From Pseudomonadota bacterium (GTDB taxonomy: Bacteria > Chloroflexota > UBA6077 > JAJPHF01): a DNA stretch of 64,000 nucleotides. The position numbers were made by a program, and so were the translations under genes. Shown one piece after another: positions 27,640 through 47,665 of the stretch (position 1 is the stretch's first letter; every line of letters begins with the position of its first letter). Below the pieces are notes generated by a model. The model worked only from the letters and a program-made list of their open reading frames with translations, was not told where the DNA came from and ran no database searches. Where the stretch lies: contig JAJPHF010000152.1 in assembly GCA_021325365.1 (NCBI GenBank), positions 1 to 64,000 of the forward strand, read 5' to 3'.

Positions 27640-27712
27640 GTTTACGCCGCCGTTACGGCAGGTAAACGTCACGTAACCAATAGCGCGCGCGAACCGTTTA
27701 CGGGGCATTTAC
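27640..27712. promoter_or_regulatory. Three GTAAAC direct-repeat pairs between DoxX and the ferritin-like gene
   Basis: Minus strand: GTAACG-GCGGC-GTAAAC (27656 to 27640) and GTAAAT-GCCCC-GTAAAC (27712 to 27696). Plus strand: GTAAAC-GTCAC-GTAACC (27662-27678). Each pair has half-sites 11 bases apart, so both lie on one DNA face as OmpR-family sites do. They lie 70 bases upstream of DoxX and 155 before the ferritin-like gene. Confidence 0.7.
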
Positions 27713-27865
27713 GTGGCGCAACCCCCCAGGTAACTGCCCGCGTCGATGCTGTAGGAGACTTCCCACGGCGAAGCAGCAGGCTATCCGCCGGAGGGCGGGC
27801 GGCAAGGGGCCGGCCCTTGGTTGATCGGGGTTGGTTTCCGAGCGCAGGTCAGGAGAGGAGAGCGG

Positions 27866-28426
27866 ATGATGAGCATGCCACTTGATCGCGCCGCCGAGCG
27901 CGACGTCCTAGCCACGTGGGCCGCCCCCGAGGTCGGGCTGCCGGCGGCTACCGAGCCAGCCGAGACGCCGCTCGACCACCTGCTGGCCGCCTTCGAGCAC
28001 CACATCGCCTCGGAGGCCGACACGGTAACGGCCTACCGCGAGCTAAGTGAAAGCACCGCCGATCCGGTGGTGGCACTCTTGCTGCGGCAGGTGGTCGACG
28101 ACGAGGAGCGCCACCACGCGCTGCTCCGCAGCATGGCCTCGCGGCTGCGCGACACGCTGCGGTGGACGCACTCGCCCGATGCGCTGCCGACGCGCGGCAC
28201 GCCGTCGTATGCGGAGGCCGTAGAGAGGGCGGGCACGCTCCGCGAGCTGGCGCGTCAGGAGCGCGAGGGCGCCCGCCAGGCCCGCGACTTGGCCAAGGCG
28301 CAGGCGGGCCTGTACGACGGGCTGTTCGGGCTCCTGCTGGACACGATGGCGGCGGACAGCGAGAAGCACGAGCGGATTCTCAGCTTCGTCGCCCGCCGCA
28401 TGGAAGCGCGACGCGCCGACGCCTAA
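27866..28426 (+). CDS. Ferritin-like (rubrerythrin-type) protein
   Basis: A 186-residue four-helix protein. HLLAAFEHHIASEADTVTAYREL and LLRQVVDDEERHHALLRSM supply Glu/His ligands of a di-iron site, and a second pair of helices (GARQARDLAKAQAG, DTMAADSEKHERILSF) completes the bundle. The family stores iron or removes peroxide. ATG 27866 follows AGGAGAGGAG. It shares a regulatory region with DoxX. Confidence 0.85.
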   Translation: MMSMPLDRAAERDVLATWAAPEVGLPAATEPAETPLDHLLAAFEHHIASEADTVTAYRELSESTADPVVALLLRQVVDDEERHHALLRSMASRLRDTLRWTHSPDALPTRGTPSYAEAVERAGTLRELARQEREGARQARDLAKAQAGLYDGLFGLLLDTMAADSEKHERILSFVARRMEARRADA

Positions 28427-28446
28427 CCCTCCGGCGTCGGCGCGTC
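28410..28446 (+). terminator. Terminator overlapping the ferritin-like stop codon
   Basis: GACGCGCCGACGCC (28410-28423) and GGCGTCGGCGCGTC (28433-28446) form a perfect 14-base-pair stem; the TAA stop lies at the loop. TCCTCCCCC follows. Confidence 0.75.
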
Positions 28447-28519
28447 TCCTCCCCCAAGGCCGGGTCCTACGGGGCCTGGCCTTGGCCGGCGAAACCCGAA
28501 CGGCGGACCGAGGTGTCAC

Positions 28520-29491
28520 ATGACCATCGAGCGAATCGCGGTCCTCACCAGCGGCGGGGATGCGCCGGGGATGAATGCCGCCATCCGCGCCGTCGTGCGC
28601 CGGGGCATCGACCAAGGGCTCCAGGTCGTCGGCGTGCGCCGCGGCTACCAGGGGCTCATGGACGGGCTCTTCGTGCCCCTCGACAGCCGTGCGGTCGGCG
28701 GCATCCTGAACCGCGGCGGCACCCTCCTCGGCACCGCGCGCGCCCCCGACTTCAAGACCGACGCCGGCCAGCAGCGGGCTCTCGACCAGCTGGCCGCCAA
28801 TGCGATTGGCGGGCTGGCGGTGATCGGCGGCAATGGCTCCCAGAGCGGCGCCCACGCGCTCAGCCAGCGTGGCTTCCCCGTCGTGGGTATCGCCTCCACC
28901 ATCGACAACGACCTCGCGGGCGTCGACATCACGATCGGCGTCGATACCGCGCTGAACACCGCCGTCGAAGCGATTGATCGCCTCCGCGACACGGCCTCGT
29001 CGCACCATCGCGCGTTCGTCGTCGAGACGATGGGACGCCGCTGCGGGTATCTGCCGCTGATGGCCGCCGTGGCCGCGGGAGCGGAGCTGGCGATCGTTCC
29101 CGAAGTACCCATCACGGCAGAGGAGGTCGTGGCCGCGGTCCGGGGCGCGTATGCCCGCGGCAAGTCGCACTGCGTGATCGTGCTGGGCGAGGGCACTGTC
29201 TGGACGGCCCAAGCCCTGTGCGACGCGATCTGCGCGGCCGGCCCGAGCTTCGAGTCTCGCCCCGTGGTGCTGGGCCACGTGCAACGGGGCGGCGCCCCGA
29301 GCGTCTTCGACCGCCTCCTCGCCACCCGCCTCGGCGCCGCCGCGGCCGACGCGCTCGCCGCCGGCGAAGCCGGGTTCGTCGTCGGTCTCGCTCGCGACGC
29401 GGTCGTGCGGGTTCCGCTCGCGCAGGCCATTGCGGGCTGCAACAAGATCGATCCGAGCCTCTACCAGTTAGCCACGGTACTGGCCCAGTAG
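28520..29491 (+). CDS. pfkA: 6-phosphofructokinase
   Basis: A 323-residue enzyme phosphorylating fructose 6-phosphate, the committed step of glycolysis. TSGGDAPGMN starts the protein, TIDND (127-131) holds the catalytic aspartate, and ETMGRRCGYL and GHVQRGGAPS are substrate-site motifs. The usual GGDGS is GGNGS (103-107): Asp is replaced by Asn, while Gly at the ATP/PPi-determining position favours ATP. Its place in the stress island suggests a role in fermentative or low-oxygen metabolism. Confidence 0.93.
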   Translation: MTIERIAVLTSGGDAPGMNAAIRAVVRRGIDQGLQVVGVRRGYQGLMDGLFVPLDSRAVGGILNRGGTLLGTARAPDFKTDAGQQRALDQLAANAIGGLAVIGGNGSQSGAHALSQRGFPVVGIASTIDNDLAGVDITIGVDTALNTAVEAIDRLRDTASSHHRAFVVETMGRRCGYLPLMAAVAAGAELAIVPEVPITAEEVVAAVRGAYARGKSHCVIVLGEGTVWTAQALCDAICAAGPSFESRPVVLGHVQRGGAPSVFDRLLATRLGAAAADALAAGEAGFVVGLARDAVVRVPLAQAIAGCNKIDPSLYQLATVLAQ

Positions 29492-29597
29492 CGCGCCGCG
29501 CCCGGGACGGGGGCGTAGCCCCCGCTAGAGACGGTCCCCCCCCGCCGCTCGCGGTGCGCCCAGAGCCAGTCTAGCGCGGGCCGCACGCGTCGCCGCC

Positions 29598-31139: not shown

Positions 31140-33770
31140 TCACAGCAGCCTCCCGCCCGCAGCCGCAAGCCGCTGCCGGCGGCCGCTCAGCACCTTGAGC
31201 GCCTCGAACCACCCAATGCTTGCCACGCCCGCTACTAAACAAATCGCCAGGTCGTCGGGGTGCAGGAGGGCGAATCCGAAGAGGTCGCGGAGGCCGGGCA
31301 CGCACAACACCAGGCCGAGCAGCGCGAGCGCCCCGCCCACCACCCACCAGAGCACCGCATTGGGCACGCGCAAGCTCGCCAGTATGGTCCGCGACCATGA
31401 GCGGTTAGTGAGAATTAGTGCGAGATTGGCGATGATCAGCGTGGTGAAGGTCATGGCCCGCGCCTCAAGCTCCCCATGACCGCGCGCCAGGACGCCGCCG
31501 AAGATAGCCAGGATCACGAGCAACACACCGGCTCCCTGGAGCACGCTCAGGCCGATGGTCGCGCGGCTGAACAGCGGCTCGGCCGGGTCGCGGGGCGGGC
31601 GGTCCATCGTATTGCCCTCCTCCGGCTCCACCTCGAAGACTAGCGAGCAGGCGGGGTCGATGATCAGCTCCAGGAACACGATGTGCGGCGGCGCCAGCAC
31701 GAGCGGCCAGCCGAAGAGCACCGGCAGCAGCGAGATGCCCGCGATGGGGACGTGTACGGCGAAAAGGTAGGCCATCGCCTTCTTGAGGCCATCGAAGATG
31801 CGCCGCCCCAGTCTCACCGCCTGTACGATGGACGAGAAGTCGTCGTCCAGCAAGACCAGCGCGGCCGCCTCCCGCGCCACGTCGGTGCCGCGTCCGCCCA
31901 TGGCGATGCCGATGTCGGCTGCGCGCAGCGCTGGCGCGTCGTTCACACCATCCCCGGTCATTGCCACGACCTCGCCGTTGGCCCTGAGCGCCCTCACCAG
32001 GCGTAGCTTCTGCTCGGGCACCACCCGGGCGAAGACGTTCACCGTGCGAATGCGCTGCTTAAGCTCATCGTCGTCCATCCGGTCTAGCTCGGGCCCCGTG
32101 ATGTGCTGGTCGGCTAGCCGGAGCCCGATCTCGTGGGCGATGTGCCGGGCGGTGCCGGGATAGTCCCCCGTAATCATCACGACGCGGACGCCCGCGCGGT
32201 AGCACTCGGCAATCGCCGCAGGCACCGTCGGCCGCACGGGATCAGCCAGCCCGATCAGCCCCACGAGCTGGAACGCGAAGTCGTGCTGCTCCGGGGGCAG
32301 CGTCGTGGGCGAGACGCACGCCTTGGCGACACCCAGCACGCGCAGCCCATCCTCGGCTAGCATCGTCGCGTGGCGCGTGAGCATCGTCGTCTGCGCTGCG
32401 TCCAGATGGCAGAGGTCGGCAATGGCCTCGGGCGCGCCCTTCGCCGCGATGACGTAGTTGTGGCCGTCGGGCGACTGCCACACGTGCGAGAGCGCCAGCA
32501 GGCCGGGCGAGAGCGGGTACTCGCGCACCAGGGTCCAGTCGCCGTGGAGGTGTTGGGTGCCCGCCAGCGCCCGCTCGCCTAGCTCTTTGAGCGCCTGCTC
32601 CATCGGATCGAAGGGCGCGCTCTGGCTCGCCAGGATGCCGAACTCGACTAGCTCGTGGAAGCCCTCGGGCAGCATGCTTGCGGCGTCCGCGCCCAGCGTG
32701 TAGTGCCGGCCGTCCACCACCAGCGCGCGCACGGACATCCGGTTGAGCGTTAGCGTGCCGGTCTTGTCCACGCACAGCACGGTCGCGGCGCCCACCGTCT
32801 CGATCGCGGGCACGCGGCGGGTAAGCACCTGCTTCTGCGCCAGCCGCCAGGCGCCCAGCGCCAGGAATACCGTGAGCACGACCGGAAACTCTTCCGGCAA
32901 GATAGCCATCGCCAGGGTGACGCCGGCCAGTACCCCGCCGATCCAATCGCCGCGGGTCATGCCGTAGACGAGCGCGATCACCAGGCAGAGCGACACCCCA
33001 ACGATCGCGAGCACGCGGACGATCTGGCCCGTCGCCCGCTGCAGTGGGCTGGCTTCGGGCTCGACGGTCTCAAGCGCCTGGCCGATCCGGCCCAGCTCGG
33101 TGTGGGCGCCGGTCGCGCGCACCGCGGCAACGCCCTGCCCCCGTACCACCAGCGTGCCGGAGTACACGAACGGCTGGTCGTCGCCGCCGGGCCGAGCTGT
33201 CGTCGCCACGCCGTCGGCAGGGGTCTTGCGCACGGGCACCGACTCTCCCGTCAGTAGCGACTCGTCGGCCTGTAGGCTGATCGACGCTAGCACGACCGCG
33301 TCCGCCGGTACGCGGTCGCCCTCCGCCAGCACCAGCACGTCGCCCGGCACCACCTCGCGGCCGGGGATGCGCCGCTGCACGCCGTCGCGGATCACGAGCG
33401 CGCGCGGGCTGGAGAGATCGCGCAGCGCATCCAGGGCGCGCTCGGTCCGGTGCGTCTGGTAGAGCGAGATGCCGATGACCACGAACACCGAGGCTAGCAG
33501 CAGTAACGCCTCCTGCACGTCGCCGAGTAGCAAGTACAGCACGCCGGCGACGACGAGCAGGAGGATCATCGGCTCGCGCACGACTTCCCAGGCGATGGCG
33601 ACGACGTTGCGCGGCTTCGCCGCCGGCAGCTCGTTGTAGCCGTAGGTGCTCAGCCGGCCGGCCGCCTCCTGCTCCGTGAGGCCGACGAGGTGACTGAGAT
33701 CGGGCGGGCTCAGCACACTCGACGTGCCCGCGCGGCGGCCGGTCGCCACGTGCGCTCCGCTCGCTGTCAA
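31140..33770 (-). CDS. Cation-translocating P-type ATPase (P2-like)
   Basis: An 876-residue membrane pump with TGES (174-177), PEEFP in helix 4 (292-296), the phosphorylated Asp in DKTGTLT (Asp 335), MITGDYPGTA and MTGDGVNDAP. It is of the calcium/PacL-like type, but PEEFP replaces the usual PEGLP, so the ion is uncertain. I chose TTG 33770: it overlaps the MgtA stop as TTGA and has GGAGGG seven bases upstream. GTG 33749 is an alternative. It is the last gene of the operon starting at 41375. Confidence 0.9.
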   Translation of the reverse strand: MTASGAHVATGRRAGTSSVLSPPDLSHLVGLTEQEAAGRLSTYGYNELPAAKPRNVVAIAWEVVREPMILLLVVAGVLYLLLGDVQEALLLLASVFVVIGISLYQTHRTERALDALRDLSSPRALVIRDGVQRRIPGREVVPGDVLVLAEGDRVPADAVVLASISLQADESLLTGESVPVRKTPADGVATTARPGGDDQPFVYSGTLVVRGQGVAAVRATGAHTELGRIGQALETVEPEASPLQRATGQIVRVLAIVGVSLCLVIALVYGMTRGDWIGGVLAGVTLAMAILPEEFPVVLTVFLALGAWRLAQKQVLTRRVPAIETVGAATVLCVDKTGTLTLNRMSVRALVVDGRHYTLGADAASMLPEGFHELVEFGILASQSAPFDPMEQALKELGERALAGTQHLHGDWTLVREYPLSPGLLALSHVWQSPDGHNYVIAAKGAPEAIADLCHLDAAQTTMLTRHATMLAEDGLRVLGVAKACVSPTTLPPEQHDFAFQLVGLIGLADPVRPTVPAAIAECYRAGVRVVMITGDYPGTARHIAHEIGLRLADQHITGPELDRMDDDELKQRIRTVNVFARVVPEQKLRLVRALRANGEVVAMTGDGVNDAPALRAADIGIAMGGRGTDVAREAAALVLLDDDFSSIVQAVRLGRRIFDGLKKAMAYLFAVHVPIAGISLLPVLFGWPLVLAPPHIVFLELIIDPACSLVFEVEPEEGNTMDRPPRDPAEPLFSRATIGLSVLQGAGVLLVILAIFGGVLARGHGELEARAMTFTTLIIANLALILTNRSWSRTILASLRVPNAVLWWVVGGALALLGLVLCVPGLRDLFGFALLHPDDLAICLVAGVASIGWFEALKVLSGRRQRLAAAGGRLL

Positions 33771-36310
33771 CGGTCTGCCCTCCAGCCGCTCGCCGCGTAG
33801 ATCCGGCGCTTCACCACCTCGACCAGCGCCAGGTAGCTGCCGGCGAGCACCGCCAGCGCGCCGAAGAACGCGGGCGGCAATGGCGTGAAGCCTAGGGCGC
33901 CAGCTAGCGGCGAGACGGTGATCGCCACGCCGACCGCCACGCTGCCCACGACGCTCAAGAGGAGCGGGCGGCTCGGGCGACTGCGGAAGGGGTTGCCCGC
34001 GGTGCGGATCACGAAGATGACGAACGTCTGGGTAGCCAGCGACTCGACGAACCAGCCCGTGCGGAACAGCGCCTCGCCGGCGTGAAAGCCCCACAGCATC
34101 AGGCCGAAGGTCAGAAAGTCGTAGATGGAGCTGACCGGCCCGAGCCCGAACATGAACCGCTGCACCATCACGGTGTCCCAGCTGCGCGGCCGCGCCGTAT
34201 AGCTGGCGTCCACGTTGTCGGTCGGGATGGTGAGCTGGGAGAGGTCGTACAGGAAGTTGTTCAGGAGAATCTGGACGGGCAGCATTGGCAGGAAGGGCAA
34301 GAAGGCGGTCGCGGCCGCCATGCTGAGCATGTTCCCAAAGTTCGAGCTGGTGCCCATGAGCACGTACTTGGTGATGTTGCCGAAGCTGCGGCGCCCCTCG
34401 ACCACCCCCCGGTGGATCGCCGCCAGGCTCTTCTCCAGCAGGATGATGTCGGCCGCCGCCTTCGCCACGTCCACGCCGTTCACTACCGAGATGCCCACGT
34501 CGGCAGCGTGCAGCGACGGCGCGTCGTTGATGCCGTCCCCCAGGTAGCCCACAACGTGCCGCTTCCGCCGCAGCGCCTGGATAACTCGGTTCTTCTGCGC
34601 GGGCGAGATGCGTGCGAACACTGTTACCTGCTCGACCTTTACGGCGAGCGCGTCGTCCGTCATCCGAGCCAGCTCGTCGCCGGTCACCAGATTGTCGACC
34701 CGGATGCCCACCTGGGCGCAGATGGCGCGGGTGACCGCCTCCCCGTCGCCGGTCAGGATCTTCATGGCGACGCCACTCGCGGCCAGACGCTCGATGGTGT
34801 CGCGGGCCGTGGGGTCGGGCGGGTCGAGAAACGCGGCGAACCCCGCGAGGATCAGGTCGCGCTCGTCTTCCGGTGTAAGCGCGGTCTGGTCGGCGGGCGC
34901 AGGCTTGTAGGCGATGGCGAGCACGCGGTAGCCATCCCGGCTGAGCTGGTCGTAGGTCTGCTGGGCTGCTGTCCGCCGCTCGGCCGTGAAGGGCTCCACG
35001 CTGTTGGCCCCCTCGACCCGCGAGCATAGGGGGATGATGCCCTCCGGCGCTCCCTTCGTGACCACCACCAGGGCGCCGGTGGCTATGGCTATTCCCGCGC
35101 CGCGGTCTTCTGCAAGCACGCTGACCCGCCGCCGCTCGAAGTCGAACGGTAGCTCCCCCCGCTTCGTGTACGCCGTAACCGACGGGTGATCGTGCGCCAG
35201 GATGGCGGCGTCCATCGGGCTGCGCAGCCCGCTCTCCAGCGCGCTGTTGACGCACGCCCAGCGCAGCACCGCCTCGGACTCCCGGCCCTGGTAGTCGACG
35301 TGCTGCTCCAGCACGACGGTGCCCAGGGTGAGCGTGCCGGTCTTGTCGCTGCACAGCGTGTCCATGCTGCCCAGGTTCTCGATCGCGGCGAGCCGCTTGA
35401 CGATCACCTTGCCGCGCGCCATGCGCAGCGCGCCCTGCGACAGCGTGACGGTGATGATCATCGGCAGGAACTCAGGGGTCAGCCCCACGGCGAGCGCGAG
35501 CGCAAACAGGAACGACTCCAGCGGGTCGCGGCGCAGCAGCGCGTTGACGAGGAACACGAACAGCACCAGCCCGATGACCGTGCGCATGATGAGAAAGCCG
35601 AAGCGGCGCGTACCCAGCTCGAAGGCCGTCGGCGGCGCCTTGTCGGCGAGTCCGCGGGCGATGGCGCCGAACTGCGTGTGTGCGCCGGTGGCGGTCACCA
35701 GCGCCTGCCCCACGCCGCTGACGACCGAGGTGCCGGCGAGCACGACGTTCTCGGGCGCCGCCGCGTCCGTCGGGGCGCTGACCGGCCGCTTCTCGACGGG
35801 CAGCGACTCGCCGGTCATCGCCGCCTCGTCCAGGCTCAGCGTGGTCGCGGCGAGCAGCGTGGCGTCCGCCGCGATCAGGTCGCCGGCGCGTAGGTCGAGC
35901 AGGTCACCCGGCACCACCTCGCGCAGCGGGACCTCCACCGGGCGCCCGTCGCGCCAGACCGTCGTCATGGTGGGAATCAACGCCTGGAGCTTCGCGGCCG
36001 CCTGCTCGGAGCGGTAGACCTGGAAGAAGTCGAGCGCCACGCTGAGGACGATCATGAGCGTGATCAGCGTAGCATTCACTGGCTCGCCGAGGACGCCCGA
36101 GACGATGCTGGCCGCGAGCAGGATCAGGACGAGCGGGTTGGCCAGAAAGCCGAGGAGCGTCCGCACGGCCCAGAAGTGGTGGCCGCTCGGGACCTCGTTC
36201 GGACCGTACCGGGCGAGGCGCGCGGCGGCCTCCGCGGCGGTCAGTCCGGCCGCGGGCGGCGCGGGCGGCGCGGCCCGCGGCGCGGCCGGCGAGGGCTCAG
36301 CGGCCAGCAT
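33767..36310 (-). CDS. mgtA: Magnesium-translocating P-type ATPase
   Basis: An 847-residue P3B-type pump. TGES (166-169), PEFLP (279-283), phosphorylation site SDKTGTLTLG (Asp 322), ILTGDGEAVTR and YLGDGINDAPSLHAADVGISV are intact, and NNFLYDLSQLTIPTDNVD is diagnostic for the MgtA/MgtB group that imports Mg2+. It starts three bases after the dehydrogenase stop and ends four bases into the next ATPase, so two different cation pumps are co-translated. A relic of its C-terminus is at 30901. Confidence 0.93.
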   Translation of the reverse strand: MLAAEPSPAAPRAAPPAPPAAGLTAAEAAARLARYGPNEVPSGHHFWAVRTLLGFLANPLVLILLAASIVSGVLGEPVNATLITLMIVLSVALDFFQVYRSEQAAAKLQALIPTMTTVWRDGRPVEVPLREVVPGDLLDLRAGDLIAADATLLAATTLSLDEAAMTGESLPVEKRPVSAPTDAAAPENVVLAGTSVVSGVGQALVTATGAHTQFGAIARGLADKAPPTAFELGTRRFGFLIMRTVIGLVLFVFLVNALLRRDPLESFLFALALAVGLTPEFLPMIITVTLSQGALRMARGKVIVKRLAAIENLGSMDTLCSDKTGTLTLGTVVLEQHVDYQGRESEAVLRWACVNSALESGLRSPMDAAILAHDHPSVTAYTKRGELPFDFERRRVSVLAEDRGAGIAIATGALVVVTKGAPEGIIPLCSRVEGANSVEPFTAERRTAAQQTYDQLSRDGYRVLAIAYKPAPADQTALTPEDERDLILAGFAAFLDPPDPTARDTIERLAASGVAMKILTGDGEAVTRAICAQVGIRVDNLVTGDELARMTDDALAVKVEQVTVFARISPAQKNRVIQALRRKRHVVGYLGDGINDAPSLHAADVGISVVNGVDVAKAAADIILLEKSLAAIHRGVVEGRRSFGNITKYVLMGTSSNFGNMLSMAAATAFLPFLPMLPVQILLNNFLYDLSQLTIPTDNVDASYTARPRSWDTVMVQRFMFGLGPVSSIYDFLTFGLMLWGFHAGEALFRTGWFVESLATQTFVIFVIRTAGNPFRSRPSRPLLLSVVGSVAVGVAITVSPLAGALGFTPLPPAFFGALAVLAGSYLALVEVVKRRIYAASGWRADR

Positions 36311-36313
36311 CGG

Positions 36314-37324
36314 TCACGACACCAGGTTGCCGGGATTCCCGGCCAGGAAGGCGCGCACGTTGGCTACGGTCGTGTCGAGGATGCGTTGCAGGGCTTCCGC
36401 GGAGTAGAAGGCGATGTGGGGCGTGAAGATAACGTTCTCGCGCTGCAAGAGCAGGTGGCCGCGCAGGGCGGTCTGGAGCTGCTCCGGGGCCACGCCCTGG
36501 CGCAGCAGCTGCCGCTCCTCGCCAATCAGCTCCTCGCCCTCGATCACGTCGAGGCCGGCGCCGGCCAGGATGCCCTCGTCCAGCGCCCACAGCAGCGCCT
36601 CGGTGTCCACCAGCCCGCCGCGCGCCGTGTTGATGAGCAGGCTGCCCCGCTTCATGTGCCCCAGGCGCTCGCGATTGATCAGGTGGCGGGTCGCAGGGAA
36701 GTAGGGCACGTGCAGTGTCACGACGTCGGCCTGGGCGATCAGGTCGTCGAGGGCCACGTAGCGGAAGCCCAGTACCTCGGCCAGCAAGTGCTGCTCGCGC
36801 ACGTCATGGGCTAGCACCTCCATACCGAAGCCGCGGCCGATGCGAACGACGTGCAGACCGATGTTGCCGGTGCCCACGACGCCCAGAGTGCGGCCCTTCA
36901 GGTCGAACCCGCGCAGGCCCGCGAGCGAGAAGTCGCCGCGCACGGTGCGCACGTAGGCCTGGTGAATCTTCCGCGACAGCGCCAGGATAAGCCCGAACGT
37001 GTGCTCGGCGACGGTGTTCTCGCCGTAGGTCGGCACGTTGCTGACCGCGATGTCTCGCGCCTGGCAAGCTGCCAGGTCGATGTGATCGTAGCCCGTCGAG
37101 CGCGTGGCGACGAAGCGCAGGCGGGGGAGCTGCGCCAGCAGGTCCGCGCCGACGCGGGAGTGGATGAAGACGCTCAGCAGCTCCGCGTCGCGGGCCAGGT
37201 CGAGCGTGTCCGCGGTCAGCGTGGCCGCCGTGGCCCGCACCTCCAGGTCCGCCAAGCGCTCGCGCAGGTAGGCTTCCTCCCAGGGCTCAGTCTCGTAGCA
37301 CGCGAGGGCTCTCGGCGCCTGCAT
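36314..37324 (-). CDS. D-lactate dehydrogenase-like 2-hydroxyacid dehydrogenase
   Basis: A 336-residue NAD-dependent enzyme. ATRSTGYDHIDLAAC and VSNVPTYGENTVAEHTFGL are the substrate-domain motifs, VVGTGNIGLHVVRIGRGFG the NAD loop, and RGGLVDTEAL, GLDVIEGEE and TPHIAFYS carry the catalytic Arg, Glu and His. It most resembles fermentative D-lactate dehydrogenase. Its start lies 38 bases inside the regulator gene, so it is coupled to the two-component system, which suggests control by it. AAGGAGAG precedes ATG 37324. Confidence 0.9.
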   Translation of the reverse strand: MQAPRALACYETEPWEEAYLRERLADLEVRATAATLTADTLDLARDAELLSVFIHSRVGADLLAQLPRLRFVATRSTGYDHIDLAACQARDIAVSNVPTYGENTVAEHTFGLILALSRKIHQAYVRTVRGDFSLAGLRGFDLKGRTLGVVGTGNIGLHVVRIGRGFGMEVLAHDVREQHLLAEVLGFRYVALDDLIAQADVVTLHVPYFPATRHLINRERLGHMKRGSLLINTARGGLVDTEALLWALDEGILAGAGLDVIEGEELIGEERQLLRQGVAPEQLQTALRGHLLLQRENVIFTPHIAFYSAEALQRILDTTVANVRAFLAGNPGNLVS

Positions 37325-38024: not shown

Positions 38025-39697
38025 GCGTCACCTTCCTTCCCCGTGGGAAGCGAGGAGTGCGTAGATAGAGTGGGGGGCACCCACGCGCCCCCGGAAGAGG
38101 GAGGCATCGGCAGGTTGGGGGGACACCCCCCAGGCCCCCCAGCCGGGGAGCCCCCCTGCACCCCCGGGGACGAGGACTGAGTGGGAGTGAGCGGAAGCGC
38201 GACGTAGAAGGTCGCGCCCGCGCCCGGCACGCTCTCGACCCAGATGCGCCCGCCGTGTAGCTCGACGATCGCGCGGGCGATGGGGAGGCCGAGCCCGCTG
38301 CCCTGGTTGCGCTGCGTCGCCTCGCTCTCCGATCGGTAGAAGCGCTCGAACACGTAGGGCTGGTCCGCCAGCGGGATGCCGGGGCCGTCGTCGGCCACGG
38401 CCCACAGCGCCTCGTCGCCCCGCCGCTCCAGCCGCAGGCTGATGCGGCCGCCGTCGTGGCCGTACTTCTGCGCGTTGCCGAGCAGGTTGAGCAGCACGCG
38501 CTCCAGCCGGTCCGGGTCGGCGCTCGCGTAGAGCGGCGCGGCCGGCAGCGCGAGCGTCAACTGCTGGCCGCGCGCCGCCGCCAGCGGCTCGACGACGCCG
38601 GCGACGCGCTCGGCCAGCGCCCGCAGGTCGGTGCGCTGGCGCTGCAGCCCGACGCGTCCCGCCCGGAAGCGCGCCAGCTCCAGCAGGTCGTCCACCAGGC
38701 TGCCCATGCGGTCGGCGGCCAGGTCGATGTTGACGAACATGCGGTGCAGGGGCTCGGGCGTGCCCGCCGGCTCGTTGGCCAGCACCACGCCGATCGAGGC
38801 CTTGATGCCCGCCAGGGGCGTCCGCAGGTCGTGCGACACGTTGGCCAGAAACTCGTCCTTCTGGCGCTCCAGCGCCCGCTGGGCGGTGACGTCGTGGAGC
38901 GTGAGCACCGCCCCCAGCCGCGTGCCATCCTCGGCCACCACTGGCGTCGCGCTGCCGAGCGCGACCACCTCGCTGCCGTCCGCCCGGCGGATGCGTAGCT
39001 CGGCGTCGATCACCGTCTCGCCGCGCAGGGCGGCGCGCGCCAGCGGCCGCTCGTCGGGCGGGTAGGGGCGCCCATCGGCGGTCAGCAGCTCGTAGTTACC
39101 CACCACGCCGTTCACGAATTCCACGTCGGGCGGGACCCCGTGAAGCCGGCGGGCGGCCTGGTTCACGAACGTGATGCGCCCGGACGGATCGACGATCAGC
39201 ACCGCGTCGGCGATGTGCCCGAGGATGGCCGCCCGCTCCTTCGCCAGCCGCTCGGCCTCGGCGCGCGCCGCCTGCTCGCGGAGCAGCAGCCGCTCGCGCT
39301 CCTCCTCGGCCCGCTTGCGCTCGATGGCGTAGCGCATGGAGCGCACGAGCACCTGGCCGTCCACCTGGCCCTTGGGGAGGTAGTCCTGCGCGCCCTCCTG
39401 GACGGCGCGCATGGCCACCGTCTCGTCGTCCAGGCCGGTGAGCACGACGATCGGCATCTCCGGCGCGCGGTCCCGCAGGCGGCGGAACGTTTCGAGCCCC
39501 TGGCTGTCCGGCAGCGAGAGGTCGAGCAGCACCACGTCGGCGCCATCCAGCTGTTCAAGGCCGGTCGCCAGGCGGTCGGCCTGGCGCAAGCGCAGGCGGG
39601 CCGCCGGCACGTCGTTCAGCATCTCGCGGATGAGCCGCGCGTCGCCCGGATTGTCCTCGACGAGCAGCACGTCCAGGTGCGGCAGGCGCTCGTTCAT
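38021..39697 (-). CDS. Hybrid sensor kinase: receiver-PAS-HisKA-HATPase
   Basis: A 558-residue cytosolic protein. An N-terminal receiver (Asp 59) is followed by a coiled coil, a PAS domain (about 150-270), the HisKA motif [11 protein letters not shown] (His 289) and a HATPase with [18 protein letters not shown] and GSGLGLPIA. It should take phosphate from an upstream partner or sense directly and phosphorylate the OmpR-type regulator encoded next. The last 50 residues are Pro/Gly/Ser-rich and look derived from an intergenic repeat. ATG overlaps the preceding stop. Confidence 0.92.
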
Positions 39698-40149
39698 GGC
39701 TTCGGCAGCGCCACGATCGTCAGCCAGAAGTCCTCGATCGACTTCACGACCGTGATGAACTGATCGAGGTCCACCGGCTTGGTAACGTAGCAGTTGGCGT
39801 GCAGGTCGTAGCTGCGCACGATGTCCTCGTCGGCCTTCGAGGTGGTCAGGATGACGACGGGAATCGTCTTCAGGTCGTCGTCGGCCTTGATCTCGGCGAG
39901 CACCTGCCGGCCGTCCTTGCGTGGCAGGTTCAGGTCGAGCAGGATCAGGTCCGGGCGGGCCGCCTCGGCGTACTTGCCCTCGCGGCGCAGGAAGGCGATC
40001 GCCTCCACACCGTCGGTCGCCACGTTGAGGTGGTTGCGCACCTTGCCCTCGCGCAGCGCCTCGATGGTCAGCCGCACGTCGCCCGGATTGTCCTCGACGA
40101 GGAGAATCTCCACGGGGCGCCCGTTGAGGCGGCCATGCTGCGTGTTCAT
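39694..40149 (-). CDS. Single-domain response regulator (Rcp1-like)
   Basis: A 151-residue stand-alone receiver with [10 protein letters not shown], phospho-acceptor Asp 72 ([13 protein letters not shown]), Thr in LTTSKADED and Lys in [16 protein letters not shown] and the long loop match receivers that serve PAS or phytochrome kinases. It sits between two kinase genes with 4-base overlaps on both sides, so it probably shuttles phosphate between them. Confidence 0.93.
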
Positions 40150-41375
40150 CGGGAGCCCCTTTCAATCGCGGGCAGCGTGAAATAGAACGTCGTGCCCTCG
40201 CCCGGCGTCGATTCCATCCAGATACGGCCGCCGTGGCGCTCCACGATCTTCTTGCAGATCGCCAGGCCGATGCCGGTGCCCGGGTACTCCGCCCGGCTGT
40301 GCAGCCGCTGGAAGATGACGAAGATGCGGTCGGCGTACTCCGGTTCGATGCCGATGCCGTTATCGCGGACCGTGAACAGCCACTCGTCGTCGCGCCGCTC
40401 GGCGGCCACCGCGACGCGTGGCGCCCGCTCGCCGTGGAACTTGATGGCGTTGCCGATCAGGTTCTGGAAGAGCTGGCTGAGCTGCCCCGCGTCGCCCAGC
40501 ACGGTGGGCAGATCGCCGCGCGTGACGACGGCGTGCTCGTCCTCGATGGCGGCGCCGAGATCGGCCAGCACCTGATCGACCACGGCGTTGCAGTCGGTCG
40601 GCGCGAACTCCGCGCCCCGCGTGCCGACCCGCGAGTAGGCCAGCAGATCGTTGATCAGCGCTTGCATGCGGCGGGCGCCGTCCACGGCGAAGTCGATGAA
40701 CTCCAGCGCGTCGGCGTCGAGCTTGTCGCCGTAGCGCCGCGCCAGGAGCTGCGTGTAGCTCGCCACCATGCGCAGCGGCTCCTGCAAGTCGTGCGACGCG
40801 ACGTAGGCGAACTGCTGCAGCTCGGCGTTCGAGCGCTCCAGCTCCGCCGTCTGCTGCGCCAGGCGCGCGGCCGTGCGGCGCAGCTCGGCCTCAGCCCGGC
40901 GGCGCTCGGTCACGTCGCGGATGATGCTCATCACGAGCAGATTATCGCCGGCGCCGAGCGGGCTCAGGCTGATCTCGACGGGAATCTCGCTGCCGTCCTT
41001 GCGCCGCGCCGCGAGCGCCAGGCCCGCGCCCATCGGGCGGGTGCGGGGCGCCGCGGTGTAGCGCTCGCGGTCAGCGACGTGCTGTTGATGGAATCGTTCC
41101 GGCACCAGGATCTCGACGGGCTGGCCCAGCAGCTCGTCGCGCGTGTAGCCGGTCATCGTCTCCACCTGGGCGTTGACCAGCACGATCGTCCCCGCGCGGT
41201 CGACGGCCACGATCCCGTCCGGCGCGGCCTCGACGAGCGCGCGGAAGTACGTGTCAGCCCGCTCCGGGAGTATGGGCGGTGCCGTGGGCGCCGGGCCACC
41301 CGGGAGCCCCCCTCCCGCGCCCGCGGGGGCCGCCCCACCCGAGTCCTGCCGTGGCGCGGATGCTCGCTCGTCCAT
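40146..41375 (-). CDS. PAS-domain sensor histidine kinase
   Basis: A 409-residue soluble kinase. A Pro/Gly-rich leader of 35 residues precedes a PAS domain (about 40-160, [20 protein letters not shown]), a coiled coil, HisKA with [12 protein letters not shown] (His 195) and HATPase with [23 protein letters not shown] and [18 protein letters not shown]. The HDLQEPLR type pairs with single-domain receivers, as encoded next. The start at 41375 follows the promoter region with a GTAAAC repeat pair at 41496. First gene of the seven-gene operon. Confidence 0.92.
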
Positions 41376-41495
41376 GACCCGCCCATCGTACAGAGATGTC
41401 CGCGAAAGTATGCCACGGGCCGGCGACCAGCGCGCGGCCCGTGGCGCTAGCAAGGAGAGTGTGCCAGCCGCGGGTGAACAGGGCGCTCAACCGGC

Positions 41496-41512
41496 GTAAA
41501 CGTCGGGTAAAC
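41496..41512 (+). promoter_or_regulatory. GTAAAC direct-repeat pair upstream of the kinase operon
   Basis: GTAAAC-GTCGG-GTAAAC, two perfect half-sites with an 11-base period, about 120 bases upstream of the PAS kinase start. It is the best-preserved copy of the motif. Confidence 0.75.
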
Positions 41513-41550
41513 GGCCTGCCGGCCGCGGCGCGGCTCGGCCCGACCCGCGA

Positions 41551-42507
41551 TCAGCCCCCTGCGCCCACCCCCGCCGTTTCCGCCGCGCTCAGGCCCGCGC
41601 CGCGCCGCGCCACGACCGCGGGCCGCAGCAGCAACATGGGCACGCTCGCCCGCTGGAGTACCCCGGTCGCCACGCTGCCCATCACCAGCCGGGCCAGCCC
41701 GCCGCGCCCGTGCGTCCCCAGCGCGATCAGGTCCGCCCCCTCCCGCGCGGCCGTCTCCGCGATGACCGCGGCCGCCTGGCCCACGACGGATGGCGCGGCC
41801 GCCACGGCCAGGGTCCGAACCGACAGCCCCGCGGCGCGCGGCCCGGCCGCGACGCGCTCCAGGTACTCCCGAGCCTCCTTCACCTCCGCCTCGGCGTCCC
41901 ACTCGGGCATGTAGACCGCCCCGTCGGTCAGCATGGGCACCGCAAACTCCACGACTTGCAGCAGGAGTAGCTCCGCGCCGAGCGCGGCGGCCAGGTCGCC
42001 GATCGGGCCGAGCGCGGCTTCGGCCAGCGCCGAGCCATCCAGCGGCACGAGGATGCGCAGCCGTTCCGCGGCAGGGCGCGTGGTCTTGCAGGCGGGCGGC
42101 ACGAGCAGCACCGGGACCGACGCGCCGCGCAGCACCGCGTCGGCCACGCTCCCGTAGACCCACCGGCCAAGCCCGCTACGGCCGTGCGTCGACATGACGA
42201 TGAGGTCGGCGTGCGCGCGGCCGGCCGCGTCGAGGATCGCGGTGTCCGCCGCGTCGTAGTAGACGTGGGCCTCGACCTCCAGGCCCTCGCCGCGCACGCG
42301 CTCGGCGATCACGCCAAGCTCGGCCTCCGCCCGGGCCACGGCGGCCTGCTGCGCCGCCCCCGCGTCCTGCCCTGGGAGCGGCGTGGCGGCAGCCGCTCGC
42401 ACCAGCACTACCCGTGCCCCGGTGCCGCGCGCGAGCCGCGTGGCGTAGGGCAGGGCGCGCTCGGCCAGGATCGAGCCGTCTTGCGGCACGAGGATTGTAC
42501 GCAGCAT
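41551..42507 (-). CDS. Tandem universal stress protein
   Basis: A 318-residue protein with two USP domains (1-140, 150-305), each starting with ILVPQDGS/ILVPLDGS and ending with a nucleotide loop: MSTHGRSGLGRWVYGSVADAV and LGTHGRGGLARLVMGSVATGV. It lacks the extra helical tail of the USPs at 25812 and 46103. Such proteins bind ATP and act in growth arrest. A GTAAAC pair lies 90 bases upstream. Confidence 0.92.
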   Translation of the reverse strand: MLRTILVPQDGSILAERALPYATRLARGTGARVVLVRAAAATPLPGQDAGAAQQAAVARAEAELGVIAERVRGEGLEVEAHVYYDAADTAILDAAGRAHADLIVMSTHGRSGLGRWVYGSVADAVLRGASVPVLLVPPACKTTRPAAERLRILVPLDGSALAEAALGPIGDLAAALGAELLLLQVVEFAVPMLTDGAVYMPEWDAEAEVKEAREYLERVAAGPRAAGLSVRTLAVAAAPSVVGQAAAVIAETAAREGADLIALGTHGRGGLARLVMGSVATGVLQRASVPMLLLRPAVVARRGAGLSAAETAGVGAGG

Positions 42508-42596
42508 GATTGCCCTCCTCTCGCGGTGCGCCCATTCGTCGCGCTCCGTCTCCGCTACAGTGTCCCGCGCGGCGGTTGGCGCTGCCGTTGCGCACG

Positions 42597-42613
42597 GTAA
42601 ACGGCCGGTAACA
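42597..42613 (+). promoter_or_regulatory. GTAAAC direct-repeat pair upstream of the USP gene
   Basis: GTAAAC-GGCCG-GTAACA, half-sites 11 bases apart, 90 bases before ATG 42507 of the tandem USP gene. Confidence 0.7.
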
Positions 42614-42690
42614 GCCGCCGCCGGCGCGGTGACGCGCGTCAGGACGTCGGCAGGAGGGCGCGGTCGGCGCTAAGCACCCGGCCAGAGATC

Positions 42691-44159: not shown

Positions 44160-44232
44160 AGGGGTGTCTCCTTGAGATGTCCTCTGGACTGTACCACAGC
44201 GCGCGCCAGCCGCCGCGACCGGGCCCGGACAT

Positions 44233-44249
44233 CGTAACGCACGGTTTAC
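44233..44249 (-). promoter_or_regulatory. Degenerate GTAAAC repeat pair
   Basis: Minus strand GTAAAC-CGTGC-GTTACG: the first half-site is perfect, the second has one change, and spacing is 11 bases. It lies between the MFS gene and the ferritin-like gene. Confidence 0.5.
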
Positions 44250-44395
44250 TTTCCGCTACCGCGCTAGCAACCCGCCCGCGGCACGCTAGGGGCAGCGGTG
44301 GTCCTGCCGCCGCCGAGCCGGCCGGCCGGCGCTGGCCGCGGGACCGCGACGGAGCGCACGGCTCCGCCGAAGGGCGCGAGAGGAGGAGTTCGGGC

Positions 44396-45115
44396 ATGGC
44401 GTTCACGGACCGCATCGAACGCGACGACTTCGCGAAGATGCCCCAGGAGTACCGCGAGCTGTTGACCCGCGTGCTGACCATTCAGGCCGATTGCGAGATC
44501 GGCGGGCCGAACGTGTACGCGCGGCGCTGGATGCTCCAAGCGCCCACCGCGGATGACATGCACCGCGTGGCGCGCATCGTGGCCGAGGAGATCGACCACT
44601 ACCGCAAGTTCGCCCGCATCCTGGCCGATCTCGGCGTGGACGTGTCGTACCTGCTGCACCGCGACAACTCGGAGCGGCTGGTAGACGCCTTCCACGAGAA
44701 GGACCCGCCCACCTGGGGCGACGTGGCGGCGTTCTGCGCGCTCATCGACCGCGTGGGCCGCTTCCAGGGCGAGGAGTTCCACAACTCCAGCTACCGGCCA
44801 ATCGACGCCATCCTGCCCGGGATCATGCAGGAAGAAGTCGGCCACATCGCCTTCGGCGTGCAGAAGCTCCAGGAGCTGTGCAAGACGGAGGAGGGCGCGG
44901 CCGAGGCGCAGGCGGCGGTAGACCGCTGGGTACCGCGCGGGCTAGACATGTTCGGCCGCGCCAGCTCGCGGCGTGCCGAGCGCTACCTGTACTGGGGCCT
45001 GAAGCGCCGCACGAACGAGCAGGCGCGCCAGGAGTATCTCGCCGAGATCACGACGCTGATCGACAACCTGGGCCTGAAGATGCCCGACGTCGCGGCCCAC
45101 CGAGTGTACGTGTAA
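44396..45115 (+). CDS. Ferritin-like protein related to PaaA/PaaC-type di-iron proteins
   Basis: A 239-residue helical protein. VLTIQADCEIGGPNVYARRW, VARIVAEEIDHYRKFARIL, GEEFHNSSYRP and IMQEEVGHIAFGVQKL supply two Glu and Glu-x-x-His motifs for a di-iron centre, in the order seen in phenylacetyl-CoA oxygenase subunits. No paa genes are near, so an independent oxidase or iron-binding role in stress is more likely. AGGAGGAG precedes ATG 44396. A USP gene follows on the same strand. Confidence 0.8.
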   Translation: MAFTDRIERDDFAKMPQEYRELLTRVLTIQADCEIGGPNVYARRWMLQAPTADDMHRVARIVAEEIDHYRKFARILADLGVDVSYLLHRDNSERLVDAFHEKDPPTWGDVAAFCALIDRVGRFQGEEFHNSSYRPIDAILPGIMQEEVGHIAFGVQKLQELCKTEEGAAEAQAAVDRWVPRGLDMFGRASSRRAERYLYWGLKRRTNEQARQEYLAEITTLIDNLGLKMPDVAAHRVYV

Positions 45116-45206
45116 GGACCATCGCGCGGGGGCGGCCGGGCCATCGGCCGCCCCCGCCGCCGGGCGCCGGGGACGGGCCTCGGGGCGCTCGGGGAAGGAG
45201 GGCATC

Positions 45207-45698
45207 GTGTTTCATCGTATCGTCGTACCGCTCGATGGCTCATCGCTCGCCGAGGCCATCCTACCCGAGGTGCAGCGCCTGGCCGCCGACTCGCCGCTTG
45301 AGGTCGTGCTGCTGGCCGTCGGCCCGGTCCCGCAGGGCATCGAGGAGCGGGACGGCCAGGTCGCCTACCTCGACGACTTGCTCGCGGAGCAGGAGCAGGA
45401 CCTGCGCGATTACCTGCGAGGGCCGGCGCACTGGCTGAACAGCCACCGCATCCCCGTCGAGATGCGCGTGCGCTTTGGCGACCCCGCCGCCGAGATCGTC
45501 CGCTGCGCCGAGGACGAGGAGGCCGACGCCATCGCCATGTGTACGCACGGCCGCACCGGCCTGGACCGGCTGATCCACGGCAGCGTGGCCGGAGCGGTGT
45601 TGCGTAGCACGCGGCTGCCGATCATCCTCTGCCACCCGACTGACGGCGCCTTCGCCGGCCAGCACGCCGACGAGGCGAAGCGCTTGACCCTCGTCTAG
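45207..45698 (+). CDS. Universal stress protein, single domain
   Basis: A 163-residue USP: FHRIVVPLDGSSLAEAILPEV at the start, and the nucleotide-binding segment THGRTGLDRLIHGSVAGAVLR before LPIILCHP. It starts with GTG 45207 after GGGGAAGGAGGG. It is 91 bases downstream of the ferritin-like gene and probably shares its transcript. Confidence 0.9.
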   Translation: MFHRIVVPLDGSSLAEAILPEVQRLAADSPLEVVLLAVGPVPQGIEERDGQVAYLDDLLAEQEQDLRDYLRGPAHWLNSHRIPVEMRVRFGDPAAEIVRCAEDEEADAIAMCTHGRTGLDRLIHGSVAGAVLRSTRLPIILCHPTDGAFAGQHADEAKRLTLV

Positions 45699-45762: not shown

Positions 45763-45798
45763 TCTCTACTGTCCGGCGAGCTGCCCTCGGGCGCCGGC

Positions 45799-46113
45799 TC
45801 AGTTGCGGTCGGCCCGACCCGCGCGCGCCAGGCGGGCTCTCCGCTCGCCGCGCCAGCACGCGAGCAGGCGCCGGGCGGCCGCGCCGAGTTCGGGACAGAG
45901 CGGCAAATCCGCCAGCAGCTGGAGCTGCAGCTCGAAGACCTCCGCCCGCGCCGGCTCGGCGATGAAGTAGCGCAGCAGCTGCTCTAGCGGCTCGTGCAGG
46001 CGTGCGTCGTCGCCATCCGGAGCGGGGAGCCGGAGCACGTCGAGCCCCTGCCGGCAGAACGTCTCTGGCGTCAGCGCGCGTTCCCTACCGCCCTCGCGCC
46101 CGCTACACGGCAC
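45799..46113 (-). CDS. Small hypothetical protein downstream of the USP-PRC gene
   Basis: A 104-residue alpha-helical protein (LHEPLEQLLRYFIAEPARAEVFELQLQLLADLP, then a basic C-terminus). I recognise no family. Its only in-frame start is GTG 46113, overlapping the USP-PRC stop by 11 bases, which favours coupled translation but leaves the start weakly supported. Codon use fits its neighbours. Confidence 0.5.
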   Translation of the reverse strand: MPCSGREGGRERALTPETFCRQGLDVLRLPAPDGDDARLHEPLEQLLRYFIAEPARAEVFELQLQLLADLPLCPELGAAARRLLACWRGERRARLARAGRADRN

Positions 46114-47518
46114 GCAGCGCCGCTGGCCGTGGAGCCGGCCAGCGACGGCGCAGGAGGTCCGCGGGGCTCAAGCTCAGGCGTACCTGGTGGCCGCCGGCCG
46201 CGCGCACCGCCTTGAGCGGGAGGAACAGCTCGCCAGCCTGTTCGAGCCCGCCTCGCACGTGCAAGTACGGCGCGTCGCGGCTGTCGATCACCTCGTCCAC
46301 CACGCCGACGAACGCGCCGAGGTCCCCTTCGTCCGCCGGGGCGTCTGGGCGCGCGAACACCGGATAGCCCGACTGAATCGCCCCGCGGTCCACGGCCGGC
46401 CCGGCGCCCCACGATTCCCACGGGTCGTCCGCGACGCGGTCACCCGCCCCTGCCGCCGCCGAGCCGTCCGGCGCTGCGCGGCCAGCTGGGCCGTCCGCTG
46501 TCGCGTACAGCTTCTGCACCAGCGTCTGCACCTCGGCCGTCAGCGGCTCCCCCGTGGAAGAATCGTGGATCAGGCGCTCCAGCACGAGCCGCAGCAGCTC
46601 CGCCTGGCGCGCGGTCAGCTCGAGCGTCGCCGGGGGCCGCGGGCGCTCCCCTGGGGTAACGTGCTGCGGCGCGCGGGCCGCCTCGAGGAGCGGGCGCAGC
46701 ACCAGCAGCGGCGCCGGCGCCAGCCGCAGCAGATCGTCGGCGACGCTGCCCTGCAGCCAGCGCCGGACGCCGGCGCGGCCGTGGCTGCTCAGCACGACGA
46801 GGTCGACCCGTGCTCGGTGGCAGTAGTCCGCGATGCCCGCGGCCGGCTCGCCAAGCTCCGCTACCGTGCGCACGCGGCGGCCGGCGGCGCGCTGCCGAGC
46901 CGCCACGCCGTCCAAATAGCTTTGCGCCGCGCTCTCGGCATCGCTGAGCAGCGCGGCCCAGACCGGCTCATCGCCCAGCTCGCCCAGCCTGCCGGAGGTC
47001 TCGGGCAGCACCGCCTGGTACAGGACCAGTTCGCCGTCCGTGCCGACCAGCCCGCCGGCATGGTCCACCGCGGCCTCCGCCAGCTCCGAGCCATCCAGGG
47101 GCACCAGCACGCGGCATGGCCAGGACGACGCGGCCACGTGGCCCAGGCGTACCAGCAGCAGCGGGACGGCGGCGCGGTGGAGGACCGCATCGGCCACGCT
47201 GCCCTGCAACGAGCGCTCCAGGCCCGTGCGCCCGTGACTCGCCATCACGATGAGGTCCGCCTGCCACTCAGTCGCGGCAGCTGCCACGGCGTCGGCCGGC
47301 GCCCCGTCCAGCACCCGCGCCGCGGCGGCCACGCCGCGCGCTCGCAGGTCGGCCGCGAGCCGGTGTAGGTAGTCGCTCGTGGCGGCCTGCTCGTCCGGCG
47401 GGGCGGCCTGCACCAGGCAGAGCGCCCCGCGGCTGCCCCGTGCGAGCGCCTCGGCATAGGACAGCGCGGCCTCGGCCGGCTCGGAGCCGTCGAGCGTCAC
47501 GAGGATCCGTTGATGCAT
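46103..47518 (-). CDS. USP-USP-helix-PRC-like fusion protein
   Basis: A 471-residue protein. Two USP domains (1-140, 145-285) carry MASHGRTGLERSLQGSVADAV and LSSHGRAGVRRWLQGSVADDL. A helical segment LTARQAELLRLVLERLIHDS, shared with the USP at 25812, follows, then a Pro/Gly/Asp linker. The last 85 residues (FARPDAPADEGDLGAFVGVV, LFLPLKAVRAAGGHQVRLSL) look like a PRC-barrel/DUF2171 domain. The fusion suggests an ATP-binding sensor tied to an adaptor. A GTAAAC pair lies 131 bases upstream of ATG 47518. Confidence 0.85.
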   Translation of the reverse strand: MHQRILVTLDGSEPAEAALSYAEALARGSRGALCLVQAAPPDEQAATSDYLHRLAADLRARGVAAAARVLDGAPADAVAAAATEWQADLIVMASHGRTGLERSLQGSVADAVLHRAAVPLLLVRLGHVAASSWPCRVLVPLDGSELAEAAVDHAGGLVGTDGELVLYQAVLPETSGRLGELGDEPVWAALLSDAESAAQSYLDGVAARQRAAGRRVRTVAELGEPAAGIADYCHRARVDLVVLSSHGRAGVRRWLQGSVADDLLRLAPAPLLVLRPLLEAARAPQHVTPGERPRPPATLELTARQAELLRLVLERLIHDSSTGEPLTAEVQTLVQKLYATADGPAGRAAPDGSAAAGAGDRVADDPWESWGAGPAVDRGAIQSGYPVFARPDAPADEGDLGAFVGVVDEVIDSRDAPYLHVRGGLEQAGELFLPLKAVRAAGGHQVRLSLSPADLLRRRWPAPRPAALRAV

Positions 47519-47648
47519 GGCTGCTCCCTTCCGTCGGCCACCCAATGCCGAGCGCTTCCCGGCGCGCCGGGCACTTGTTGCCTGGGGCGGAGCCCTCCGC
47601 CTCTGGCGTCAGCGTGGCACGCGGCGGTAGCAGCCCACGTTGCGGAGC

Positions 47649-47665
47649 GTAAACGCGGGGTTAAG
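47649..47665 (+). promoter_or_regulatory. GTAAAC repeat pair between USP-PRC and SRPBCC genes
   Basis: GTAAAC-GCGGG-GTTAAG, half-sites 11 bases apart, the second degenerate. It lies in the 262-base gap between divergent stress genes at 47518 and 47781. Confidence 0.55.

Follow-up and report, generated by a model that had tools for sequence, protein, structure and literature searches.

Four-box candidate activator promoters tied to an OmpR/PhoB-type regulator and to stress-survival genes in a Chloroflexota contig

Several described regulators resemble the one treated here. PhoB acts through direct boxes that replace the -35 element of the promoter and stop some 10 bp short of the -10 element, its dimer recruiting RNA polymerase in place of the missing hexamer. 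DosR from Mycobacterium tuberculosis is a regulator of the NarL/LuxR type and recognizes a palindromic operator. The box of CpxR, according to the available text of PMC9600279, is GTAAA-N5-6-GTAAA. In this work we have analysed a stretch of 64,000 nucleotides (contig JAJPHF010000152.1 of assembly GCA_021325365.1, positions 1 to 64,000, hereafter the window) with a G+C content of 72 percent, in which repeated GTAAAC boxes accompany an operon for a two-component system. From the arrangement of these boxes in the window and in related genomes, we consider it very likely that they form four-box activator promoters, most likely bound by the OmpR/PhoB-type response regulator encoded at 37287-38024, which would raise the expression of its own operon and of a stress-survival set.

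The first-pass annotation had placed an OmpR-type regulator in this island, and the 37287-38024 product indeed joins a receiver to a Trans_reg_C winged helix. It shares with PhoB this architecture and, in its predicted sites, the direct boxes of about 11 bp, their seat in place of the -35 element and their end some 10 bp short of the -10 element; it differs in that the box sequence is another one, the four boxes are spaced by 11, 10 and 12 bp, and the genes served are stress genes. None of the NCBIfam models compared reaches its cut-off with this protein, the best one being MtrA (212.4 against 300 bits) and PhoB giving 201 against 296.2 bits; the best solved structure is RegX3. The half-site and the period are nearly those of the CpxR box (available text of PMC9600279), but the CpxR model scores 148.7 against 341 bits, the genes are different and two more boxes lie downstream here. 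Some sources label close relatives of the protein KdpE, but the KdpE model gives 153.3 against 325 bits and the two ATPases of the operon both stay below the KdpB cut-off. The closest named proteins, with 91 percent identity, come from metagenome-assembled genomes of Chloroflexota.

The seven GTAAAC repeat pairs that had been listed by the first-pass annotation (27640, 27662, 27696, 41496, 42597, 44233 and 47649) were all recovered as matches to GTAAAC-N5-GTAAMC with at most two mismatches (two of them perfect, two with one mismatch and three with two), while 0.56 matches are expected by chance in 64 kb and none of 100 shuffles reached seven. The proposed period of 11 bases was also borne out, since both GTAAMC pairs found on the same strand less than 40 bp apart, and five of the six looser GTAA pairs, are spaced by 11 bp. 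The possibility that the repeats arise by chance, or as codon or repeat artefacts, has nothing found in its favour and appears negligible given these counts, the layout controls and the relatives-only promoter model described below, and in our view it is refuted by the result of the held-out matrix, i.e., 25 matches against none.

We have aligned 106 sites, six from the window and 100 from relatives, picked with a matrix that covers boxes 1 to 3. As judged from this alignment, the 11-bp repeat pair is the upstream half of a larger predicted four-box element. Read in the direction of the gene, the element consists of CGTTTACC, a second CGTTTACC 11 bp further on, a sequence close to CGGCAACC after another 10 bp and a second one close to CGGCAACC after 12 bp, followed about 10 bp later by TAnnnT. 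Two strong boxes (GTTTAC) are thus followed by two weaker ones (approximately GGCAAC), the consensus being CG-TTT-ACC twice and then CG-GCA-ACC twice, with box starts at 0, +11, +21 and +33. Box 4 and the -10 element stand at fixed positions even though they lie outside the matrix used to pick the sites: the A and the C of box 4 are conserved in 81 and 85 of the 106 sites, and the A and the T of the -10 element in 80 and 78, respectively. No -35 consensus is visible in the aligned sites and therefore the promoters look activator-dependent. As in class II promoters of the PhoB type, some 10 bp separate the end of the array from the -10 element and a -35 hexamer is lacking. Two tandem dimers of the OmpR/PhoB type at a class II promoter would need boxes of this kind, repeated on average every 11 bp along the same helical face, extending into the -35 position and lying at a fixed distance from the -10 element. 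Two other readings of the downstream boxes were rejected. GCAACC might be taken for the -35 element of an extracytoplasmic function sigma factor, but its distances to the -10 element (about 9 and 21 bp) would not fit, and an inverted reading of boxes 3 and 4 is contradicted by variant sites that have GTTTAC at these places as a direct box.

The window was scanned with a promoter model whose 44 training sites all came from relatives. This model finds exactly seven promoters, with scores between 33.8 and 44.9 bits, and nothing else above 10 bits; it finds no promoter in 20 mononucleotide shuffles of the window, and in the background of 80 unrelated loci (1,318,801 bp, whose regulators share 38-49 percent identity among the matches listed) it gives seven matches at 10 bits and one at 18 bits. 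The predicted promoters are the following:

27624-27679, minus strand: promoter 1 (40.1 bits), before the DoxX-like gene 26968-27570, holding the 27640 and 27662 pairs; boxes 27672-27679, 27661-27668, 27651-27658 and 27639-27646; -10 element 27624-27629; predicted transcription start at about 27617
27695-27750, plus strand: promoter 2 (41.5 bits), before the rubrerythrin/ferritin-like gene 27866-28426 and then the phosphofructokinase gene 28520-29491; boxes 27695-27702, 27706-27713, 27716-27723 and 27728-27735; -10 element 27745-27750
41458-41513, minus strand: promoter 3 (37.5 bits), candidate autoregulatory promoter of the kinase-regulator operon; boxes 41506-41513, 41495-41502, 41485-41492 and 41473-41480; -10 element 41458-41463
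42559-42614, minus strand: promoter 4 (37.2 bits), before the tandem Usp (universal stress protein) gene 41551-42507; boxes 42607-42614, 42596-42603, 42586-42593 and 42574-42581; -10 element 42559-42564
44232-44287, plus strand: promoter 5 (33.8 bits), before the PaaA-like diiron gene 44396-45115 and then the Usp gene 45207-45698; boxes 44232-44239, 44243-44250, 44253-44260 and 44265-44272; -10 element 44282-44287
47611-47666, minus strand: promoter 6 (44.9 bits), before the Usp gene 46103-47518; boxes 47659-47666, 47648-47655, 47638-47645 and 47626-47633; -10 element 47611-47616
47702-47757, plus strand: promoter 7 (36.7 bits), facing the gene 47781-48554; boxes 47702-47709, 47713-47720, 47723-47730 and 47735-47742; -10 element 47752-47757

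The predicted transcription starts of the seven promoters lie 17-109 bases upstream of the start codons, and six of the seven genes served have a Shine-Dalgarno match, the exception being the kinase gene. With respect to the first-pass list, six of these promoters correspond to its sites and the seventh (47702-47757), which has no exact core, had been missed. Boxes 3 and 4 as such, the -10 element and the fixed direction of the sites are likewise absent from that list. The pairs at 27640 and 27662 were wrongly taken for separate sites, the former being boxes 3 and 4 and the latter boxes 1 and 2 of a single promoter. The placement of the sites in promoter gaps holds: those at 44233 and 47649 fall inside longest open reading frames (ORFs), yet they precede the Shine-Dalgarno-matched starts 44396 and 47781, and thus all seven seem intergenic. 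The direction of the 44233 site assigns it to the diiron/ferritin-like gene 44396-45115 and not to the MFS gene on the opposite side.

The motif scan at the scale of whole genomes was run on relatives, i.e., 400 Chloroflexota genomes, taking E<=1e-90 as the threshold for orthologs of the regulator. Such orthologs are present in 19 of the 400 genomes, as 21 copies with 61-81 percent identity; within the class to which G215 belongs, 15 of 29 genomes carry one. The region of the recognition helix is nearly unchanged in most of them and more divergent in loci L148-L151 and L171. A second response regulator gene lies directly beside the ortholog in genomes G191, G045 and G063 (loci L140, L141 and L143). 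Within the class, the exact core motif occurs in six of the 15 regulator-bearing genomes against none of the 14 lacking the regulator, and in the phylum in nine of the 19 bearing genomes (18 matches). Core counts as such separate the class weakly (119 against 96 for the reversed pattern in the 15 bearing genomes, and 85 against 133 in the other 14). Four genomes (G215, G143, G247 and G335), with 66 one-mismatch core matches against 19 of the reversed pattern, were chosen for the genome-wide work because of this excess, leaving the other 15 as a held-out set.

In these four genomes, all three of the additional features (box 3, box 4 and the -10 element) accompany 27 of the 66 core matches, seven more showing two of the features and four showing one. 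Since the definition of these features drew in part on the same sites, it is the controls and not this fraction that carry the argument. The full layout was found in none of 20 core matches from regulator-less genomes of the class (20 of 85 matches, 11 genomes), in none of the 19 reversed-pattern matches and in none of the 66 sites when read towards the other side; it is present in six of 23 core matches of other regulator-bearing loci and in five of the seven in the window. A matrix trained only on 34 sites of the four genomes gave, at 18 bits or more, 25 matches in 261,303 bp round the 17 regulator copies of the 15 held-out genomes, at least one being found at 11 of these copies. The same matrix and threshold gave no match in the 1,318,801 bp of unrelated loci (one appears at 15 bits); none was found either in the 456,140 bp of that DNA above 60 percent G+C, or in the control loci taken from the four genomes, 116,027 bp in all.

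The direction of the sites is given by the -10 element, whose fixed position replaced a test based on called genes, because the gene caller selects the longest ORFs and also yields spurious genes. The rule read from called genes is weak: among 63 site clusters, 19 follow it, 12 oppose it, 20 have genes both ways and 12 have none.

A site before the operon of the regulator itself had also been claimed, and it is found in the window as promoter 3. Promoters of at least 20 bits aimed at the regulator or at its kinase operon occupy the same position in six of the 21 copies in relatives, namely in G215, G143 (through a Usp gene), G335, G060, the second copy of G063 and G294, the latter having 45 percent G+C and T-rich boxes; three of these six genomes (G060, G063 and G294) also pass the held-out matrix. 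In several genomes, predicted direct boxes spaced by about 10-11 bp, the form of OmpR/PhoB sites, precede the regulator operon. In G060, a gene matching NB-ARC/NACHT (L154:403-1407, minus strand) is divergent from the regulator and has a four-box promoter aimed at it.

The enrichment near stress genes proposed by the first-pass annotation was seen for Usp in the four relatives: a Usp gene lies within 300 bp of eight of 62 site clusters, against 0.20 expected and none of 19 control clusters. At 600 bp the counts are 9/62 and 1/19, and at 3 kb 15/62 and 2/19. The 88 promoter matches in relatives were reduced to 74 genes after dropping those with no ORF, with an ORF shorter than 90 amino acids or with a repeated gene, and to 73 after removing an overlap on the opposite strand; the same loci offered 560 other genes, from which 74 were taken as controls. 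Usp is found in 13 of the 73 promoter-linked genes and in two of the 74 controls, and it is the only family clearly above control, the others being single or few cases. Among the families listed (25 of 113 in the promoter-linked set and 25 of 111 in the control set), Hsp20, CBS and DksA/TraR zinc finger proteins are promoter-linked three times each, Hsp20 and CBS appearing at most once each in the controls, and ribonucleotide reductase appears once in both sets. Other promoter-linked genes encode phosphoribosyltransferases, a nicotinate phosphoribosyltransferase, an M50-CBS protease, an AAA_33 kinase, baeRF, Cpn60, BON, P-ATPase, rubrerythrin, DsrE and OsmC. The stress regulon postulated at the outset under this regulator is thus supported by the regulator-linked layout, the autoregulatory position and the Usp enrichment, with an operator that is corrected and more specific.

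The order of the operon, from right to left, is PAS kinase, receiver, receiver-PAS-kinase, regulator, D-2-hydroxyacid dehydrogenase and two P-type ATPases. Around it there are four Usp genes and DoxX-like, rubrerythrin/ferritin-like, phosphofructokinase and PaaA-like diiron genes:

40146-41375, minus strand: PAS sensor histidine kinase (PAS, HisKA, HATPase_c), first gene of the operon, with an uncertain start that has no Shine-Dalgarno match
39694-40149, minus strand: single-domain receiver (Response_reg only) between two kinases
38021-39694, minus strand: receiver-PAS-histidine kinase (Response_reg, PAS, HisKA and HATPase_c; scanned as 38021-39700), with a predicted start
37287-38024, minus strand: OmpR/PhoB-type response regulator (PF00072 Response_reg and PF00486 Trans_reg_C, above cut-off), the proposed activator
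31140-37324, minus strand: rest of the putative operon, with gaps of -38, 3 and about 29 bp
36314-37324, minus strand: D-2-hydroxyacid dehydrogenase, operon member
33767-36310, minus strand: Mg2+-type P-ATPase, operon member
about 33737 to 31140, minus strand: cation P-ATPase (best model PMR1-type, below cut-off), with an approximate start
41551-42507, minus strand: tandem-domain universal stress protein (PF00582, two stretches)
46103-47518, minus strand: tandem-domain universal stress protein (PF00582, two stretches)
25812-27570, minus strand: DoxX-like gene and following Usp gene (DoxX and Usp matches), the probable operon of promoter 1
27866-29491, plus strand: rubrerythrin/ferritin-like gene and phosphofructokinase gene (PF00365), probably transcribed together
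44396-45698, plus strand: PaaA-like diiron gene and Usp gene, probably transcribed together

A longer ORF of the receiver-PAS-kinase, reaching 40165, overlaps the receiver gene in another frame. The gene 47781-48554 (plus strand), under promoter 7, has no Pfam match at E<=1e-4. In G079, a protein with the same domain (L142:3125-3592) stands at the same place as the receiver 39694-40149 in the window. Elsewhere in the window there are a SAM riboswitch (RF00162, 2950-3124, plus strand) upstream of the ORF 3250-4503, and a 553-residue protein (24003-25664, minus strand) of which two stretches match the ThyX/Thy1 profile, perhaps a tandem form. Immediately to the left of the stress genes there is a tRNA gene (23453-23524, minus strand), a type of gene that often serves as an integration point.

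The receiver gene located between two kinases suggests a phosphorelay. In the mechanism that we propose, the PAS kinases and receivers of the operon would feed phosphate to the 37287-38024 regulator, and the phosphorylated protein would bind the four direct boxes from about -61 to -22, as a pair of head-to-tail dimers sitting on the same side of the DNA. The downstream dimer would then replace the -35 element and recruit RNA polymerase to the TAnnnT -10 element. In the window, the regulator would raise its own operon together with the Usp, ferritin-like, DoxX, phosphofructokinase and cation P-ATPase genes, and in relatives its targets would include Hsp20, CBS, ribonucleotide reductase and phosphoribosyltransferase genes. 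The signal is probably the loss of oxygen or energy. The sensor domains are general ones (PAS in the kinases of the window, and also GAF in relatives); such predicted domains would suit an internal redox or energy signal, without being proof of it.

On a comparison of gene content, not of orthologs, this candidate regulon recalls that of DosR. Several Rv genes of the DosR set encode Usp or CBS proteins. The gene lists in the available text of PMC5309233 and PMC8044303 further give for DosR Hsp20, an M50 protease, ribonucleotide reductase, phosphoribosyltransferases, a P-type ATPase and a phosphofructokinase. In our data, Usp, Hsp20, CBS, ribonucleotide reductase and P-ATPase genes all stand behind these promoters, be it in the window or in some relative, and Rv2626c is the second-best solved relative of the CBS protein of L156. 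The window regulator differs from the NarL/LuxR type in having a Trans_reg_C output domain and direct boxes, and the window phosphofructokinase differs as well, being a PF00365 protein. No counterparts of the nitroreductase, narK2 and tgs1 were noticed among the proteins scanned.

Several observations weigh against the proposed regulon. The exact core, counted irrespective of the rest of the layout, also occurs in 55 of the 381 regulator-less genomes of the phylum (66 matches), and a clear excess over the reversed pattern is seen in only four of the 19 bearing genomes. In those four, 28 of the 66 core matches lack all three of the further features, and no more than 30 of 63 site clusters were scored as intergenic, against 6/19 in controls. 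The held-out matrix finds no match at six of the 17 copies (G175, G045, the first copy of G063, G103, G223 and G032), some of these stretches being a few kb long; and while only the four genomes served to train the matrix, the layout as a concept came from an alignment to which the held-out genomes had contributed sites. Moreover, in promoter 3, which serves the regulator itself, the third box (GGTTGAGC) is a poor match to the consensus, the reversed-pattern control also reaches Usp genes at the wider distances given above, and the DosR-like kinds of genes are spread over the window and its relatives, no single genome being shown with all of them. In relatives, 15 of the 21 copies have no promoter aimed at their own operon. 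This last observation also speaks for a rival reading, in which the promoters are real but bound by another transcription factor that co-occurs with the two-component operon and controls it too. Candidates for that role are many, since in seven genomes between five and 11 response regulators each match at E<=1e-40, and in G191, G045 and G063 one is the immediate neighbour of the ortholog. We regard such a factor as improbable in view of the promoters placed before the regulator's own operon, both in the window and in six of the 21 copies, the absence of the full layout from the 20 matches of regulator-less genomes of the class, and the four direct boxes of about 11 bp, which suit the OmpR/PhoB fold.

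Boxes 3 and 4 overlap the -35/spacer region, a possible seat for a repressor, and the array could in principle be an operator that blocks a sigma-A promoter. We give this explanation even less credit, because no -35 hexamer is visible, which makes the promoters look activator-dependent, and the fixed distance to the -10 element in many sites fits a contact with the polymerase. With the activator promoters and their regulator taken as real, the alternative that deserves more attention concerns the signal, which might be an envelope, cation or Mg2+ stress, as for CpxR or PhoP, instead of the loss of oxygen or energy. In its favour are the likeness of the half-site to the CpxR box (PMC9600279, available text), the Mg2+-type P-ATPase and the further cation P-ATPase at the end of the operon, and the general nature of PAS and GAF as sensor domains. 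We still find it unlikely, since the Usp, Hsp20, CBS, M50-CBS, ribonucleotide reductase and nicotinate phosphoribosyltransferase genes of relatives match better the hypoxia and dormancy set, as far as it is described in the available text of PMC5309233.

The literature search, within the text available to us, returned no earlier map of such regulation in Chloroflexota, and the promoter set described here suggests a hitherto unmapped network of survival genes. The sequence itself, at very low background, gives the operator, its direction, the start site and the targets, and thus genes of obscure function such as 47781-48554 become placeable in the survival regulon. As a tentative proposal, which we hold with somewhat less than even confidence, the system may be a functional counterpart of DosR in Chloroflexota, with similar survival genes run by an OmpR/PhoB-type regulator that would be fed by a relay of kinase, receiver and kinase and would act at four-box promoters of class II. 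If this is true, the survival set would be a portable module that has been wired independently to different sensors of oxygen or energy; and if the signal is indeed the loss of oxygen or energy, these bacteria would provide an independent case for why dormancy regulons converge on the same genes.

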